From a bacterium HR40 (GTDB lineage: Bacteria > Pseudomonadota > Alphaproteobacteria > Geminicoccales > Geminicoccaceae), in assembly GCA_002898275.1 (NCBI GenBank), contig BEIQ01000002.1:62001-126000 (forward strand): 64,000 bases of DNA, given 5' to 3'. The number at the start of each line of letters is the position of its first letter. The first letter of the stretch is position 1. Shown here in pieces: positions 23,954 through 62,907 of the stretch. The notes under the pieces are model-generated. The model had not been told where the DNA came from and searched no databases. It saw only the letters and a program-made list of their open reading frames with translations. A program made the translations under genes and the position numbers.

Positions 23954-24043
23954 GGAGGGATGCCGGAGCGGTCGAACGGGACGGTCTCGAAAACCGTTGT
24001 ACCCTCACGGGTACCGAGGGTTCGAATCCCTCTCCCTCCGCCA
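23954..24043 (+). tRNA. tRNA-Ser (anticodon CGA)
   Basis: Class II tRNA of 90 bases including an encoded CCA (24041-24043). The acceptor arm GGAGGGA (23954-23960) pairs with TCCCTCC (24033-24039). The anticodon stem ACGGT/ACCGT encloses loop CTCGAAA, giving anticodon CGA, which reads UCG. A long variable arm (TACCCTCACGGGTA) and a T-arm with GGTTCGAATCC complete the serine pattern. Confidence 0.97.
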
Positions 24044-45036: not shown

Positions 45037-45092
45037 CTTTCCCCCGACATCCGCCGGCCGGGGGAAGCGGGACGCAAGGCTCGACCTCGGGC

Positions 45093-45184
45093 ATCTCAAA
45101 TCCCTCCGCCGGTACGACCCGGATCAGGTTCGACGGGTTGCCGCGCTTGCGGCTCTCAGCCCCGAACGGGGCACCCCGTTGAGA
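45093..45184 (-). promoter_or_regulatory. TPP riboswitch (THI element)
   Basis: On the minus strand the conserved order is visible: GGGGTGCCCCG, GGGCTGAGAGCCGCAAG, ACCCGTCGAACCTGAT, CCGGGTCGTACCGGCGG and AGGGA. CTGAGA and the ACCTGATC core bind thiamine pyrophosphate. It ends about 57 bases before thiM, so translational or transcriptional shut-off of the whole thi operon by TPP is expected. Confidence 0.95.
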
Positions 45185-45195
45185 TCCGCCTTTCA

Positions 45196-49133: not shown

Positions 49134-50432
49134 CTAGACCTCCCGCTGGGCGGCGCGCAGCGCCCGTTCGAGATCGGCCAGGATGTCCTCCGGATCCTCG
49201 AGCCCGACGGAAAGACGGATCATGTCCTCGCTCACCCCGGCTGCGGCGAGCTGGTCGCAGCCGAGCTGGGCATGGGTGGTGGAGGCCGGATGGATCACCA
49301 ACGTCTTGGCATCGCCGACATTGGCGAGATGGGAGGCGAGCCGGCAGGCCTCGATGAAGCGGATGCCGGCGGCACGCCCGCCGCGGATGCCGAAGGCGAC
49401 GATGGAACCCTGGCCCTTTGGCAGCAGGCGACGCGCCAGCGCATGGTCGGGATGATCGGGGAGGGAGGGGTGGAGCACCCAGGCGACCGCCGGATGGGCG
49501 CGGAGGAACTCGACCACCCGCGCGGTGTTGGCGACGTGTCGGGCCATGCGCAGGGGCAGTGTCTCGAGCCCCAGCAGGAAATAGAAGGCATGCTGGGGAC
49601 TGAGGCAGGCGCCGAAGTCGCGCAACCCCTCGCTGCGAGCCCGTGCGGCAAACGCCTGGGGCCCGAAGGTGTCGGCGTAGACGATGCCGCCATAGGCGGG
49701 ATCGGGCTCGCACAGGGTCGGGAATTTGCCCGCCGCCTGCCAATCGAAGCGACCGCCGTCCACGAGCACGCCGCCGACCGCCACCCCATGGCCACCGATC
49801 CACTTGGTCGCCGAATGCAGGACGAGATCCGCGCCGAGCTCGATCGGCTGGCAGAGGTAGGGCGTAGCGAAGGTGTTGTCGATCAAAAGCGGCAAGCCAT
49901 GGGCGTGAGCGACCTCCGCCACCCTCGGGATGTCGAGCACCTCGAGCCGCGGATTGCCGATGGTCTCGGCGAAGACCAGCCGCGTCTCGGGACGGATGGC
50001 CGCGGCGAACCCGTCCGGGTCGCGCGGGTCGACGAAGCTCGTGGTGATGCCGAAGCGCGGCAGGGTGTGGCGCAGCAAATTCGCACTGCCACCGTAGAGG
50101 TTGCGGGCAGCGACGATGTGCCCGCCGGCACCCGCGAGGGTGGCGATCGCGAGATGGAGTGCTGCCTGACCGCTCGCCGTGGCGACCGCGGCGACGCCGC
50201 CCTCGAGCGCCGCCATCCGCTCCTCGAAGACCGCGACCGTGGGATTGGAGATGCGCGAGTAGATATGCCCCGGGAGCTCGAGGTTGAAGAGCGAGGCGGC
50301 GGTTGCGGCATCCGGGAAGAGGTAGGAGGTGGTCTGATAGATGGGCACGGCACGCGCACCGGTGGCGGGATCGGCGCTCTGGCCGGCGTGCACGGCAAGC
50401 GTATCGAAGCGAAACGGCAGGGTTGCGGTCAT
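49134..50432 (-). CDS. metY: O-acetylhomoserine aminocarboxypropyltransferase (sulfhydrylase)
   Basis: PLP enzyme of 432 residues making homocysteine from O-acetylhomoserine and sulfide. The internal aldimine Lys210 lies in LVLHSATKWIGGHG. Other blocks are TLAVHAGQSADPATGARAVPIYQTTSY, RISNPTVAVFEERMAALEGG and NVGDAKTLVIHPASTTH. The length exceeds that of cystathionine gamma-synthases and fits MetY. The start is 70 bases past an intrinsic terminator, so its own promoter should lie within 50433-50495. Confidence 0.93.
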   Translation of the reverse strand: MTATLPFRFDTLAVHAGQSADPATGARAVPIYQTTSYLFPDAATAASLFNLELPGHIYSRISNPTVAVFEERMAALEGGVAAVATASGQAALHLAIATLAGAGGHIVAARNLYGGSANLLRHTLPRFGITTSFVDPRDPDGFAAAIRPETRLVFAETIGNPRLEVLDIPRVAEVAHAHGLPLLIDNTFATPYLCQPIELGADLVLHSATKWIGGHGVAVGGVLVDGGRFDWQAAGKFPTLCEPDPAYGGIVYADTFGPQAFAARARSEGLRDFGACLSPQHAFYFLLGLETLPLRMARHVANTARVVEFLRAHPAVAWVLHPSLPDHPDHALARRLLPKGQGSIVAFGIRGGRAAGIRFIEACRLASHLANVGDAKTLVIHPASTTHAQLGCDQLAAAGVSEDMIRLSVGLEDPEDILADLERALRAAQREV

Positions 50433-50492
50433 CGCGCGGATTCCCAGAAAGACACCGCGCCCAGGCCATAGCCCGACCCCGGACCAGCCGAC

Positions 50493-50532
50493 AGAGAAAA
50501 ATGCGGAGAGGGATGGCAGGCTCCCTCTCCGC
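50493..50532 (-). terminator. Intrinsic terminator
   Basis: Minus strand GCGGAGAGGGA (50532-50522), an 8-base loop, TCCCTCTCCGC (50513-50503), then ATTTTTCTCT (50502-50493). A perfect 11-bp GC-rich stem with a U-tract is a textbook Rho-independent terminator. It lies 205 bases after the spike gene and 70 bases before metY. Confidence 0.85.
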
Positions 50533-50660
50533 AGCGAGCGCGTGCCGAGCAGCCGAGGAGCGACCTCCGTCGCGCGTACCCGGCACGTCCGGGCCATCGA
50601 GCCGCCTGCAGTCGGAGAGTGCGGTGGCGGTGCGGCCGACTGCAGAACCGCTTCAATGTG
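50493..50660 (-). ncRNA. Candidate FNR-controlled small RNA
   Basis: From a predicted start near 50659 to the terminator, about 165 bases contain four consecutive inverted repeats: CTGCAGTCGG/CCGACTGCAG (50606-50645), CCCGG/CCGGG (50579-50593), GCGAC/GTCGC (50560-50573) and the terminator stem. There is no convincing reading frame. An FNR-type box with a TTAG-type -10 precedes it. It could also be a metY leader, but the terminator separates it from metY. Entirely predicted. Confidence 0.45.
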
Positions 50661-50665
50661 GCCCC

Positions 50666-50671
50666 TGCTAA
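50666..50671 (-). promoter_or_regulatory. Candidate -10 element for the small RNA
   Basis: Minus strand TTAGCA begins 23 bases after the end of the FNR-type box, nearly the same geometry as the box and TTAGGT before ubiT. The match to TATAAT is weak, as expected for an activator-dependent promoter. Confidence 0.35.
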
Positions 50672-50693
50672 GCACGACGAGGCCGACGCGGCA

Positions 50694-50707
50694 TTGACCT
50701 CGATCAA
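50694..50707 (-). promoter_or_regulatory. FNR/FixK-type box upstream of the candidate small RNA
   Basis: Minus strand TTGATCGAGGTCAA matches TTGAT-N4-(G/A)TCAA closely. It lies 30 bases after the stop of the spike gene, in the 304-base gap before metY. Together with the ubiT box it is one of only two strong sites noticed in the window. Confidence 0.65.
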
Positions 50708-50736
50708 TGTCCGCCAGCTCTCGCCGTGGATGATGG

Positions 50737-53037
50737 TCAATCTTCGATGTAGATCCGGTTCGGATGTTGCGCATCGTCACCGGCGGTGACATAGACGGTG
50801 ACCACCCGGTAGCGCTGGCTGATCACGTAGGGCACGACCTCGCCCGGGGCGTGCAGGGTCATCCCGGTGCCGGCGCGGATCTCGACGTCGCCGGTGCCGA
50901 CTTTCATCACCCGGAACCAGGCACAGGGGACACCCACGGGCACGAGCCCGCTCGGCACTTCGAGCCAGGTCGGCGAGCCGTTGCTCACCCGTACGAGCCG
51001 GCCGAGATAGGAGGCGGGGATCGCGAATCCGCCCGCGGTCCAGTGCACGGGTTGGTAGTGATTCTCTTCCGCATCCGGATAGAGATCGGGAATGAGGACC
51101 TGATTGTCGGCAGTGACGTAGACCCGCACCCGCTGGTATTGGTGACGAATGACGTTCTTGCCCTTCGGCACCCGCAGCGTCGCTCCGCTGCCAGCGGCGA
51201 AGAACACGTTGCCCGTGCCCTCGCGCAGCACGTCGAACCAGCGCACCCCCTCGGCCACGAGGCCGGCAGGAACGGTGACGGTGCGGTCGGAGGCGTGGTT
51301 GACCCGGATGAGCTTGCCGAAATCGTCCACCGTCACGGTCCAGTCGAAGTTGCGGGTGCGCGACGGCAAGACGCCCCGGCGAGTGGCGATCGGCACCCAG
51401 GAGCGCACGCCGTCGGAATCGGCGAGCCGCAGGTACCATCCCGGCCCGAGCCACTGCTCTCCGGTCGCCGGCAAGGCCGTGGACGCCGAGGCATAGATGG
51501 CGAGCCCTTCGCGGTCGACCGGCGGCGGCGTGGTCCGGGGCTGCAGATAGAGCGGATCGCCGATCTCGATACGGGCGAGCTCGCCACGCGGGTTGCCCTC
51601 GCCATTGCCGAGCTTGAGGCGGACGTCGACGAGCTGCTGATTGGGATCCTCCGGGCTCGCCACACCCACCGATACGGTGCGGGTGATGGTGGCGAGTTGA
51701 TGCGAGGTGAGGTCGAAGAGAATGCCGTGGTAGGGTTTGTCGTTGGCCGGATGGGTGTCCCACTCGGCCTGGGCCGTGCCCTTGTAGTGGGCAGTGAGCA
51801 TCGGCAGACCGACATCGCGCGCGCGGATCTGCCAAGCCAGCTTGTCGAATTTGTCGAGACCGTTGATTTCCCGTGCGACCAAGCCAGTATCGCCGAGAAC
51901 TCCTCCATCCCCTGAATAGTTACCTGTCGTCTTCGGACCGAAGAAATTGCAGCCTACGAAGGTACGCTTCGTGCACGAATTCTGGAACGTGTCGTTGGAA
52001 TCCACGTATCTCCGGCTAGGATCTATGTTGTGCGTCTGACAAAGAACGTAGGTAATTGCATTGTTGCTTCCGGATATCCCGGATCTCTCGCTGTATTCGA
52101 CGACGCCATAGTCGAGATACTCGAAATCGCACAGCAGCAGCAGGATGCGAGCGCAGTTGACGAGCTTCACCCCCACCGTGCCCGGCGTGCCGGAGGAGGC
52201 GGTGTGGACCTGCACCCGCTGCAGGATGACGTTGTTGATGAGCCGGGCAGGGTCGGCCTGCGAGCCATCGAGCAGGATGCCGACGGTGCCGTTGCCACGC
52301 AGGGCGATACTCACCTCTTGGATCAAGCTGTCGCCATAGTTCACCCCCGGCGTCTCGGCGCGGTAGCGAATGCCGTTGGCCCGCATGTCGCTGCGCCCGA
52401 AACCGCCGTTGATGCCCGCGATCCAGCACTCGTTGGCGTCGACGAGGTCGAGGCACCACCCCTCGGGATCGCTCGCCCCGAGCGGTGCCGATCCGCCTTC
52501 GAAGACGAGGTCGCGCGCCCGGAACTCGTGGCCGTAGACGAGCACGCCGCCCTTCGTCATGCGGATCGTCATGTCGGCGAGGGTCGAGCGATTCCAGTCG
52601 GTGGTGGCGGAGAAATCGACCCGCCAGGCACCCTCGTTGCGACGGAAAACGAAGGCGCGCGGTCCCTCGGCCAGGATGCGGGTGGCGTCGCGACCGGCCC
52701 CCACCAGGGTGCGCTGCGGCGGCACCTCGACCGGGCTCGCCAGCCTGTAGATGCCGCTCGGGACCTGGACCGAGGTATGGGCGGCGAGGGCCGCGGCAAA
52801 CGCCGGTGCGTCATCGGCCACGCCGTCGCCGACGGCCCCGAAGTCGCGCACCGACACGACATCCTCGAGGCGCTGGGCAAGCCTGCGGACCACCGTGCCG
52901 CTGCCGGACCGGCGGAAGGGAAGATCGGCGAGAGGGGCCTTGCGGGTGAGGTGGCGGTCGGCCGTCGAGACGACGATGGCATCCTCCGGCACGAGCCCGC
53001 TCGCATCCGAAAGCTCGTGGATCTGCTTGGTGCTCAT
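50737..53037 (-). CDS. Phage-like tail spike with pectate-lyase beta-helix
   Basis: A 766-residue protein. The N-terminus (TKQIHELSDASGLVPEDAIVV) resembles short phage-type attachment domains. A beta-helix domain begins with VVSVRDFGAVGDGVADDAPAFAAALAA, the Pectate_lyase_3 signature common in tail spikes. Repetitive beta-strands run to about residue 420. Two related C-terminal modules follow (around 570-665 and 665-766), each with a VRVYVTA/VVTVYVTA ending. A polysaccharide-binding or depolymerising spike is the best reading. ATG overlaps the stop of a 58-residue gene. Codons for residues about 310-382 are AT-richer than the rest. Confidence 0.8.
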   Translation of the reverse strand: MSTKQIHELSDASGLVPEDAIVVSTADRHLTRKAPLADLPFRRSGSGTVVRRLAQRLEDVVSVRDFGAVGDGVADDAPAFAAALAAHTSVQVPSGIYRLASPVEVPPQRTLVGAGRDATRILAEGPRAFVFRRNEGAWRVDFSATTDWNRSTLADMTIRMTKGGVLVYGHEFRARDLVFEGGSAPLGASDPEGWCLDLVDANECWIAGINGGFGRSDMRANGIRYRAETPGVNYGDSLIQEVSIALRGNGTVGILLDGSQADPARLINNVILQRVQVHTASSGTPGTVGVKLVNCARILLLLCDFEYLDYGVVEYSERSGISGSNNAITYVLCQTHNIDPSRRYVDSNDTFQNSCTKRTFVGCNFFGPKTTGNYSGDGGVLGDTGLVAREINGLDKFDKLAWQIRARDVGLPMLTAHYKGTAQAEWDTHPANDKPYHGILFDLTSHQLATITRTVSVGVASPEDPNQQLVDVRLKLGNGEGNPRGELARIEIGDPLYLQPRTTPPPVDREGLAIYASASTALPATGEQWLGPGWYLRLADSDGVRSWVPIATRRGVLPSRTRNFDWTVTVDDFGKLIRVNHASDRTVTVPAGLVAEGVRWFDVLREGTGNVFFAAGSGATLRVPKGKNVIRHQYQRVRVYVTADNQVLIPDLYPDAEENHYQPVHWTAGGFAIPASYLGRLVRVSNGSPTWLEVPSGLVPVGVPCAWFRVMKVGTGDVEIRAGTGMTLHAPGEVVPYVISQRYRVVTVYVTAGDDAQHPNRIYIED

Positions 53038-61088: not shown

Positions 61089-62907
61089 CCCGAGCCCCTT
61101 TGCGGTCGTCGCGGCCGCGGTCCTCCTCGGCGCCGCACCGTCCGCTCGGGGCGCGCCCCCCGAGGAACCACTGGTGCTGACCGACATCCCCGAGATCGGC
61201 CAGCCCGGCGGTAGCTTGCGTATGCTCGTGGGGCGCACCCGCGACACCCGTCTCTTCACCGTCTACGGCCACGCCCGCCTCGTCGGCTATGCACCCGACC
61301 TCGCCTTCGTTCCCGACATCCTCGCCAGCTTCACCGTGGAGGAGGGACGGATCTTCACCTTCCGCCTGCGGCGCGGCCACCGCTGGTCGGACGGGGCCCC
61401 CTTCACCACCGAGGACTTCCGCTTTTGGTGGGAGGATGTGGCCCTCGACACCGAGCTGAGCCCGCTCGGCCCGCCGGTCGAGATGCTGGTCGATGGCGAG
61501 CCGCCGCGTGTCGAGGTGCTCGACCCCCTCACCATCCGCTACGTCTGGTCGAAGCCCAATCCCCTCTTCCTTCCTGCCCTGGCCCGCGCGACGCCGCTCT
61601 TCATCTACGCCCCGGCCCATTATCTGAAGCGGTTCCACCGCCGGTACGCCGACCCCGCGGCCTTGCAGCGTCTCGTTTCGCAGGATCGGGCCCGCGACTG
61701 GGTCCAGCTGTTCGGCCGGCGCGAGCGCATGTACGAGAGCGACAATCCCGATTTGCCCACACTCGAGCCGTGGATGCCCACCATCCGTCCGCCCGCCCAG
61801 CGCTTCGTCGCGATACGAAACCCCTTCTTCCACCGCGTCGACGAGCGGGGACAGCAGCTGCCCTACATCGACCGTTTCGTGCTCGAACTGGTGGACGGCA
61901 AGCTTATCGCCATGAAGACCGCCGCCGGAGAGACCGACCTGCAGGGACGCGGGCTCTCTTTTCGCGACTACACCTTCCTCAAAGAGAGCGAAGGGCGTAG
62001 CGGCCTCGAGGTGCGGCTGTGGAAGGAAGGGCGCGGCGCCCATCTCGCTCTCTATCCCAATCTCAATGCAGCCGACCCGGTATGGCGCGGGCTTTTCCGC
62101 GACCGCCGCTTCCGCCTCGCCCTGTCGCTCGCCATCGACCGCGAGATGCTCGCCCAGTACCTCTATTTCGGCCTCGCCACCCCCGCCAACAACACGATCC
62201 TGCCGGAAAGTCCGCTGTGGAGCGACGAGGTGGGCACCGCCTGTCTCGGCCATGACCCCGCCCAGGCCAACGCCCTCCTCGACGCGCTCGGTCTCGATCG
62301 GGGACAAGACGGGGTGCGCCGACTCCCGGATGGTCGACCGCTCGAGCTCGTGATCGAGACTCCCGGCGAGGAACCGGAGCAACTCGACGTCATCGAGCTG
62401 CTCGCCGATGATTTCGCGGCGATCGGGCTCCGCATCCACGGTCGGCCGAGCGAACGCGAGCTTCTCCGCAATCGACTCTTCGCCGGGCAAGCGCTGATGA
62501 CGATCTGGTACGGCATCGAGAACGGCCTGCCGCGGCCGGAGACGAGCCCGCACGAGTTCGTCCCGACGAGCCAGTTCGACCAGCCGCAATGGCCGAAATG
62601 GGGTCAACACTTCGAGACTCGCGGCGCGGCTGGAGAGGCCGTCGATCTGCCCGAAGCCCGTCGCTTGCTCGACCTCTTTGCCGCCTGGCGGAATGCGGCC
62701 TCGCCCGCCGAGCAGGAGGCGATCTGGCGCGACATCCTCGTCACTTACGCCGAGCAGTGCTGGACGATCGGCCTCGTCCGGGACGTGTTGCAGCCCATCG
62801 CCGTCCGTCGCGGCTTGCACAATGTGCCGCAGCAGGCGGTCTGGAGCTGGGAGCCGCACGCCCAGTTCGGCATCTACCGCCCCGACACGTTCTTCTACCG
62901 GAACTAG
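61081..62907 (+). CDS. ABC transporter substrate-binding protein, family 5
   Basis: A 608-residue periplasmic binding protein with a signal peptide (about residues 1-25, ending ARGAP). Family blocks are [29 protein letters not shown] and [31 protein letters not shown]. It is larger than the SBP at 9-10.7 kb and resembles the long YejA-like type. ATG 61081 overlaps the end of the ATPase gene by 8 bases. The ligand is unknown and no dedicated permease is visible. Confidence 0.88.

Follow-up and report, generated by a model that had tools for sequence, protein, structure and literature searches.

A conserved intergenic locus of Geminicoccaceae predicted to encode a small RNA under FNR-type control

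The window analysed here is a 64,000-nucleotide stretch of the genome of bacterium HR40 (Alphaproteobacteria; Geminicoccales; Geminicoccaceae), namely positions 62,001 to 126,000 of the forward strand of contig BEIQ01000002.1 (assembly GCA_002898275.1). Between two leftward genes lies an intergenic gap of 304 bases (50433–50736, taking the ATG at 50432 as the start of the downstream gene, metY), and within it a predicted unit, from an FNR-type box to a T run, spans 50497–50707 of the minus strand with an RNA body of about 163 nt. A DNA search of sixty genomes found matches in nine of them (the own genome included). Seven match along the body and are referred to here as body members; the other two, L008 (genus g8) and L009 (genus g13), have only the 3' hairpin in common with the window RNA. 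In the order of predicted transcription, the features of the locus are:

50737..53037 (-), upstream gene of 766 aa with a pectate-lyase-like domain (PF12708) and tail-spike-like PHROG matches; a syntenic anchor outside the RNA
50694..50707 (-), FNR-type box TTGATCGAGGTCAA, centred at 50700.5; in seven of seven body members and both hairpin-only loci
50666..50671 (-), -10-like TTAGCA, occupying -12 to -7 relative to the predicted +1; conserved only loosely in relatives
50659 (-), predicted transcription start, placed by the box position (box centre at -41.5) and the start of conservation
50595..50658 (-), 5' hairpin of 20 pairs, all formed in seven of seven sequences
50616..50635 (-), apical loop of that hairpin, CCGCACCGCCACC..., with no variation in the first 13 bases; a candidate region for pairing
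50539..50587 (-), middle hairpin, with greater variability; in the window, at least four adjacent pairs of the consensus are broken
50502..50533 (-), terminator hairpin; inner 30 nt (50503–50532) identical in six genomes of four genera, one copy each
50497..50501 (-), T run at which the RNA is predicted to end
49134..50432 (-), downstream gene for a PLP enzyme of Cys/Met metabolism (the metY of an initial annotation of this DNA), outside the unit

Elsewhere in the window, a TPP riboswitch (45083–45188, minus strand, 74.8 bits) stands ahead of leftward thiM-, thiE- and thiD-like frames (named by eye), and a tRNA-Ser (cga) is encoded at 23954–24043 on the plus strand.

The FNR-type box that the initial annotation had reported on the minus strand is indeed present and is conserved in relatives. 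Its centre precedes the C of CATTGA by 42.5 nt in all seven body members, so that conservation starts at the very base expected as the +1 of a class II promoter; measured from this predicted +1, the box stands at -41.5 in every member, and the intervening 34-nt spacer is constant in length with an identity between genera of only 21–56%. A TTAG-type -10 at class II spacing had been proposed as well, and this part stood for the window (TTAGCA at -12 to -7) without proving general: the corresponding hexamers of the seven members are TTAGCA, TTAGTA, TTAGTG, TTTATG, ATGATG, TCTTCT, and AGGTAC. A sigma-70 consensus scan of the locus returned no promoter. The evidence for the putative promoter is the box and its spacing, not a consensus -35/-10.

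The predicted fold of 50485–50665 has a free energy of -98.6 kcal/mol, a value as low as which was found in none of 200 shuffles (mean -80.3, z -3.9), and we count three main hairpins where four in a row had been described. In the consensus structure of the members, 93.3% of cells are paired (reached by 1 of 500 shuffles) and five pairs have changes on both sides (reached by 3 of 500). Covariation over the whole structure is modest: a statistic of 'further pair types' was at chance (219 of 500 shuffles as good), and the covariation score of 0.099 is approached by structures slid by +2 and +3 (0.082 and 0.087, respectively). The 5' helix is paired in 100% of cells, with one compensatory pair and 18 of its 20 pairs never varying. 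As first noted, there is an intrinsic terminator, the hairpin at 50533–50502 followed by TTTTTCTCTG, and it is the sole terminator-like site in 50000–51200 (shuffles: mean 0.2, s.d. 0.6). Judged by eye, T runs are also found in L002–L005 and, weaker, in L006 and L007. No Rfam family, that of FnrS included, matched the locus, either at the gathering score across the whole window or at E ≤10 in 50380–50780, two matches in the latter segment (E 4.9 and 7.9) being taken as chance.

Outside the window, the body is shared by three sequences of genus g2 (L002–L004; 77–79% identity in the matched part) and three of genus g15 (L005–L007; 77–87%), with a single copy of the RNA per genome; L010, a second weak match elsewhere in genome G007, was left out. 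A covariance model of the body found it in seven genomes, from three genera, among the 31 genomes of the order, all 31 of which belong to one family, and a search of 289 genomes of the class under stricter filters returned the own genome only. One of the four g15 genomes, G026 (89% complete), lacks both the RNA and the upstream gene, and a plasmid collection yielded no match. A pattern scan of named genomes gave eight stretches, six of them consistent with the family relatives G001, G014, G015, G021, G022, and G028 and two from Streptomyces, taken as chance. Box, hairpins, and terminator had been expected to recur in close relatives, and relatives do have the box, the spacing, the hairpins, and a hairpin at the 3' end. 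Columns 1–82 of the RNA are 94–99% identical between g2 and g15 (three g2 and two of the three g15 sequences; L006 left out), against 54–61% at four-fold sites in the gene next to it; the genus of the window is more diverged, at 80–84% and 49–55%, respectively. A candidate small RNA (sRNA) family of a known functional kind, with its body in three genera and its locus type in five, is well supported by these sequence comparisons.

Two frames remain open along the RNA in seven of seven members, one starting with a TTG at +4 and running for 37 to 55 codons, the other starting with an ATG near +63 and reaching the end of the stretch after 33 to 35 codons, as might be expected of a short protein or leader peptide. 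We give a coding role scarcely any weight, as the frames are displaced by indels of one or two nucleotides in L006 and L007 and, between the window and L002 (positions 4–48, by eye), changes in the TTG frame fall in third positions in only three of eight cases.

The gene neighbourhood bears on two further explanations. The RNA lies behind the same pectate-lyase-like gene in all seven body members, and so do both hairpin-only loci, as would be the case if it were the 3' UTR and terminator of that gene, perhaps processed, with the box incidental or an extra promoter. FNR-dependent sRNAs derived from 3' UTRs exist, e.g. NarS, which the part of the source available describes as processed from the narK mRNA (PMC8139620); the window RNA resembles NarS in its position behind a coding gene and its presumed FNR dependence and differs from it in apparently having a promoter of its own. 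A 3'-UTR origin is nevertheless unlikely, given that the box holds its position at -41.5 despite a diverged spacer and that the upstream gene is present in other genera without the RNA element; its protein was matched in 22 of 31 family genomes (E ≤0.001, several matches partial), more than carry the RNA. The upstream gene adjoins metY in several genera.

The second explanation, offered by the initial annotation as an alternative, is that the RNA is a leader of metY with an attenuator. Indeed, metY follows the terminator in the window and in all three g2 genomes. It is thereby downstream in four of the seven members and was not found in the downstream sequence fetched for the three g15 members (about 0.5 kb in L005, which has an abhydrolase-like match there, and about 3 kb in L051 and L053). 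Moreover, six g6 genomes and G006 have metY after the upstream gene and lack the RNA, and no riboswitch is found at the locus by Rfam. Because three members have the RNA without metY in the fetched sequence, and seven genomes have the upstream gene and metY without the RNA, the attenuator reading is largely contradicted, and we consider it very improbable.

The terminator hairpin has a history of its own. Its 30-nt sequence, GCGGAGAGGGAGCCTGCCATCCCTCTCCGC, occurs once and without mismatch in six of the 31 family genomes (four genera), always at this locus; among 385 genomes of the class (four of them of this family), it was found with up to three mismatches only in G000 and G001, both of this family. 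Identity across four genera is what a mobile or palindromic repeat could produce, and such an element is contradicted by its copy number of one per genome, always at this locus, and by its presence in 2 of 385 class genomes, both from one family; we attach next to no credence to it. Letter-for-letter identity that includes the loop would, we infer, exceed what a terminator requires. No T run follows the 3' hairpin in L009, and the g15 members carry other 3' hairpins.

At L008 (1358–1540, plus strand) and L009 (1501–1660, minus strand), the box (TTGATCCAGATCAA and TTGACTTGGGTCAA, respectively) and the identical 3' hairpin flank unrelated, strongly folding bodies, which may be further sRNAs belonging to this promoter cassette. 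A broader reading, which we advance only tentatively and with low expectation, is that of a modular, oxygen-controlled RNA locus: the box promoter and the 30-nt 3' hairpin would form a cassette in four genera, the body would have been exchanged within it, and in g15 the 5' domain would have been joined to other terminators. The 3' hairpin, kept in L009 even without a T run, would then be a separate regulatory module. If this were true, it might possibly pair with the ribosome-binding site and start codon of a COX1-family (ccoN-like) gene.

The best match of the 3' hairpin loop is in fact the start of such a ccoN-like gene (GGAGAGGATGGCAG against CTGCCATCC-C-TCTCC), and 7 of 100 shuffled loops did as well. 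No ccoN-like gene was found in the approximately 1.1 of 3.2 Mb of G001 that was covered, and the nirS and nnrS starts of that genome gave weak pairing. For the 5' loop, the best duplex match was a frame antisense to metY that is surely no gene, equalled by 17 of 100 shuffled loops, and a duplex screen against 52 start regions, taken from genes that were called only roughly, did not rise beyond shuffled loops. Additionally, the exact 12-mer complement of the 5' loop was sought in seven genomes; its matches lie mostly inside frames and number 13 in G000, against 4 for the reversed control. Among the matches listed, 12 sites in G000 and 13 in G001 lie besides the RNA, and at 17 of these 25 the seed occupies the same phase of the best sense frame; the excess over the reversed control is therefore probably a matter of codon use.

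The regulatory side of the proposal can be followed in the genome as a whole. The box pattern TTGATNNNNRTCAA occurs at eight places in 2,892,134 bases (nine strand matches, one palindromic place being counted twice), against one match for the reversed-pattern control. Besides the RNA, these places are at an FnrL-like CRP/FNR gene, at a cytochrome D1 (cd1) gene, ahead of a radical-SAM/HemN-like gene, ahead of a COX1 gene (which we take to be of the ccoN-like subtype), ahead of an NnrS gene, and between COX2 and ApbE genes; the eighth, at aldehyde dehydrogenase/DctM genes, is ambiguous in its assignment, and the starts of the genes near these genomic boxes are uncertain. In those parts of G001 that were sampled, boxes stand ahead of nirS-like and fnrL-like genes, and a looser pattern gave eight matches there: upstream of nirS, nnrS, and fnrL, one between nnrS and cox2, and four at further places.

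Four CRP-type proteins of the own genome score above the Pfam cut-off. One of them, L056, has, by eye, the N-terminal C-x2-C-x7-C and central Cys of FNR; its best NCBIfam model is FnrL (191.8 bits, below the curated cut-off of 300), and among solved structures it is closest to FixK2 and FNR. By these signatures, the genome encodes a predicted FNR-type, FnrL-like regulator. The same sRNA might instead answer to another CRP/FNR protein, such as a DNR-like, NO-responsive one, a reading to which we assign a low chance. FNR and DNR sites look alike, the cytochrome cd1 and NnrS genes have the same box, and there are four CRP-type proteins to choose from. The protein L058 has a match to the solved structure of DNR (E 7.1e-28), although a different CRP-type protein, 3fx3, matches it best (E 9.2e-48), and FtrB is its best NCBIfam model, with a score below the cut-off. 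Against DNR speaks the box at the FnrL-like gene itself and at the HemN-like and COX1 genes, which together make up a typical FNR set.

We consider it probable that the locus is a stand-alone sRNA gene, activated at low oxygen by an FnrL-type (less likely DNR-like) regulator bound at -41.5 and yielding an RNA of about 163 nt that would probably act in trans. The possible oxygen-responsive sRNA of the initial annotation thus gains support from the conserved box, spacing, and hairpins, together with the FnrL-like regulator gene and a fitting set of FNR boxes; transcription, oxygen control, and trans action are here all predictions. As oxygen falls, the FnrL-type regulator (or, less likely, its DNR-like paralogue) would bind the box at 50694–50707 and, as a class II activator, switch on transcription from 50659; the RNA of about 163 nt would end at the intrinsic terminator near 50497. 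It would then probably base-pair in trans through the C-rich 5' hairpin loop, the 3' hairpin, or both, with genes of the switch between aerobic and low-oxygen respiration as partners. Judged by what is generally known of sRNAs, pairing in trans is the likely mode of action of this one, and an Hfq gene is present in the own genome (E 1.3e-30).

Several known systems invite comparison. FnrS of Escherichia coli is described, in the part of the source available, as an anaerobic sRNA activated by FNR (PMC8139620); the window RNA would work like it by promoter logic, as a stand-alone sRNA under FNR-type control, and differs in matching no Rfam family. PcrZ of Rhodobacter sphaeroides is a low-oxygen, FnrL-linked sRNA from the same class; in the same partial source, a PrrA consensus site is noted and FnrL control may be indirect, so that direct control is in doubt for this alphaproteobacterial example (PMC8139620). 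The window RNA is set apart from that description by its FNR box at -41.5. DenR (sRNA-29) of Paracoccus denitrificans, an sRNA of alphaproteobacterial denitrification compared here by description only, is conserved in Rhodobacteraceae and acts through a GntR-type regulator, according to the available part of its report (PMC6686037).

The RNA is not named in the literature searched, some of it available in part, although it may have been published elsewhere. FNR-controlled small RNAs are, to our knowledge, known from few bacteria. If the preferred reading of a stand-alone, FnrL-activated sRNA is true, the locus would represent an RNA family that is specific to this lineage and defined by sequence, and whose class II FNR-type promoter can be recognised from the DNA letters alone. 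Its bearers are bacteria with denitrification-type genes, known here partly from metagenome assemblies.
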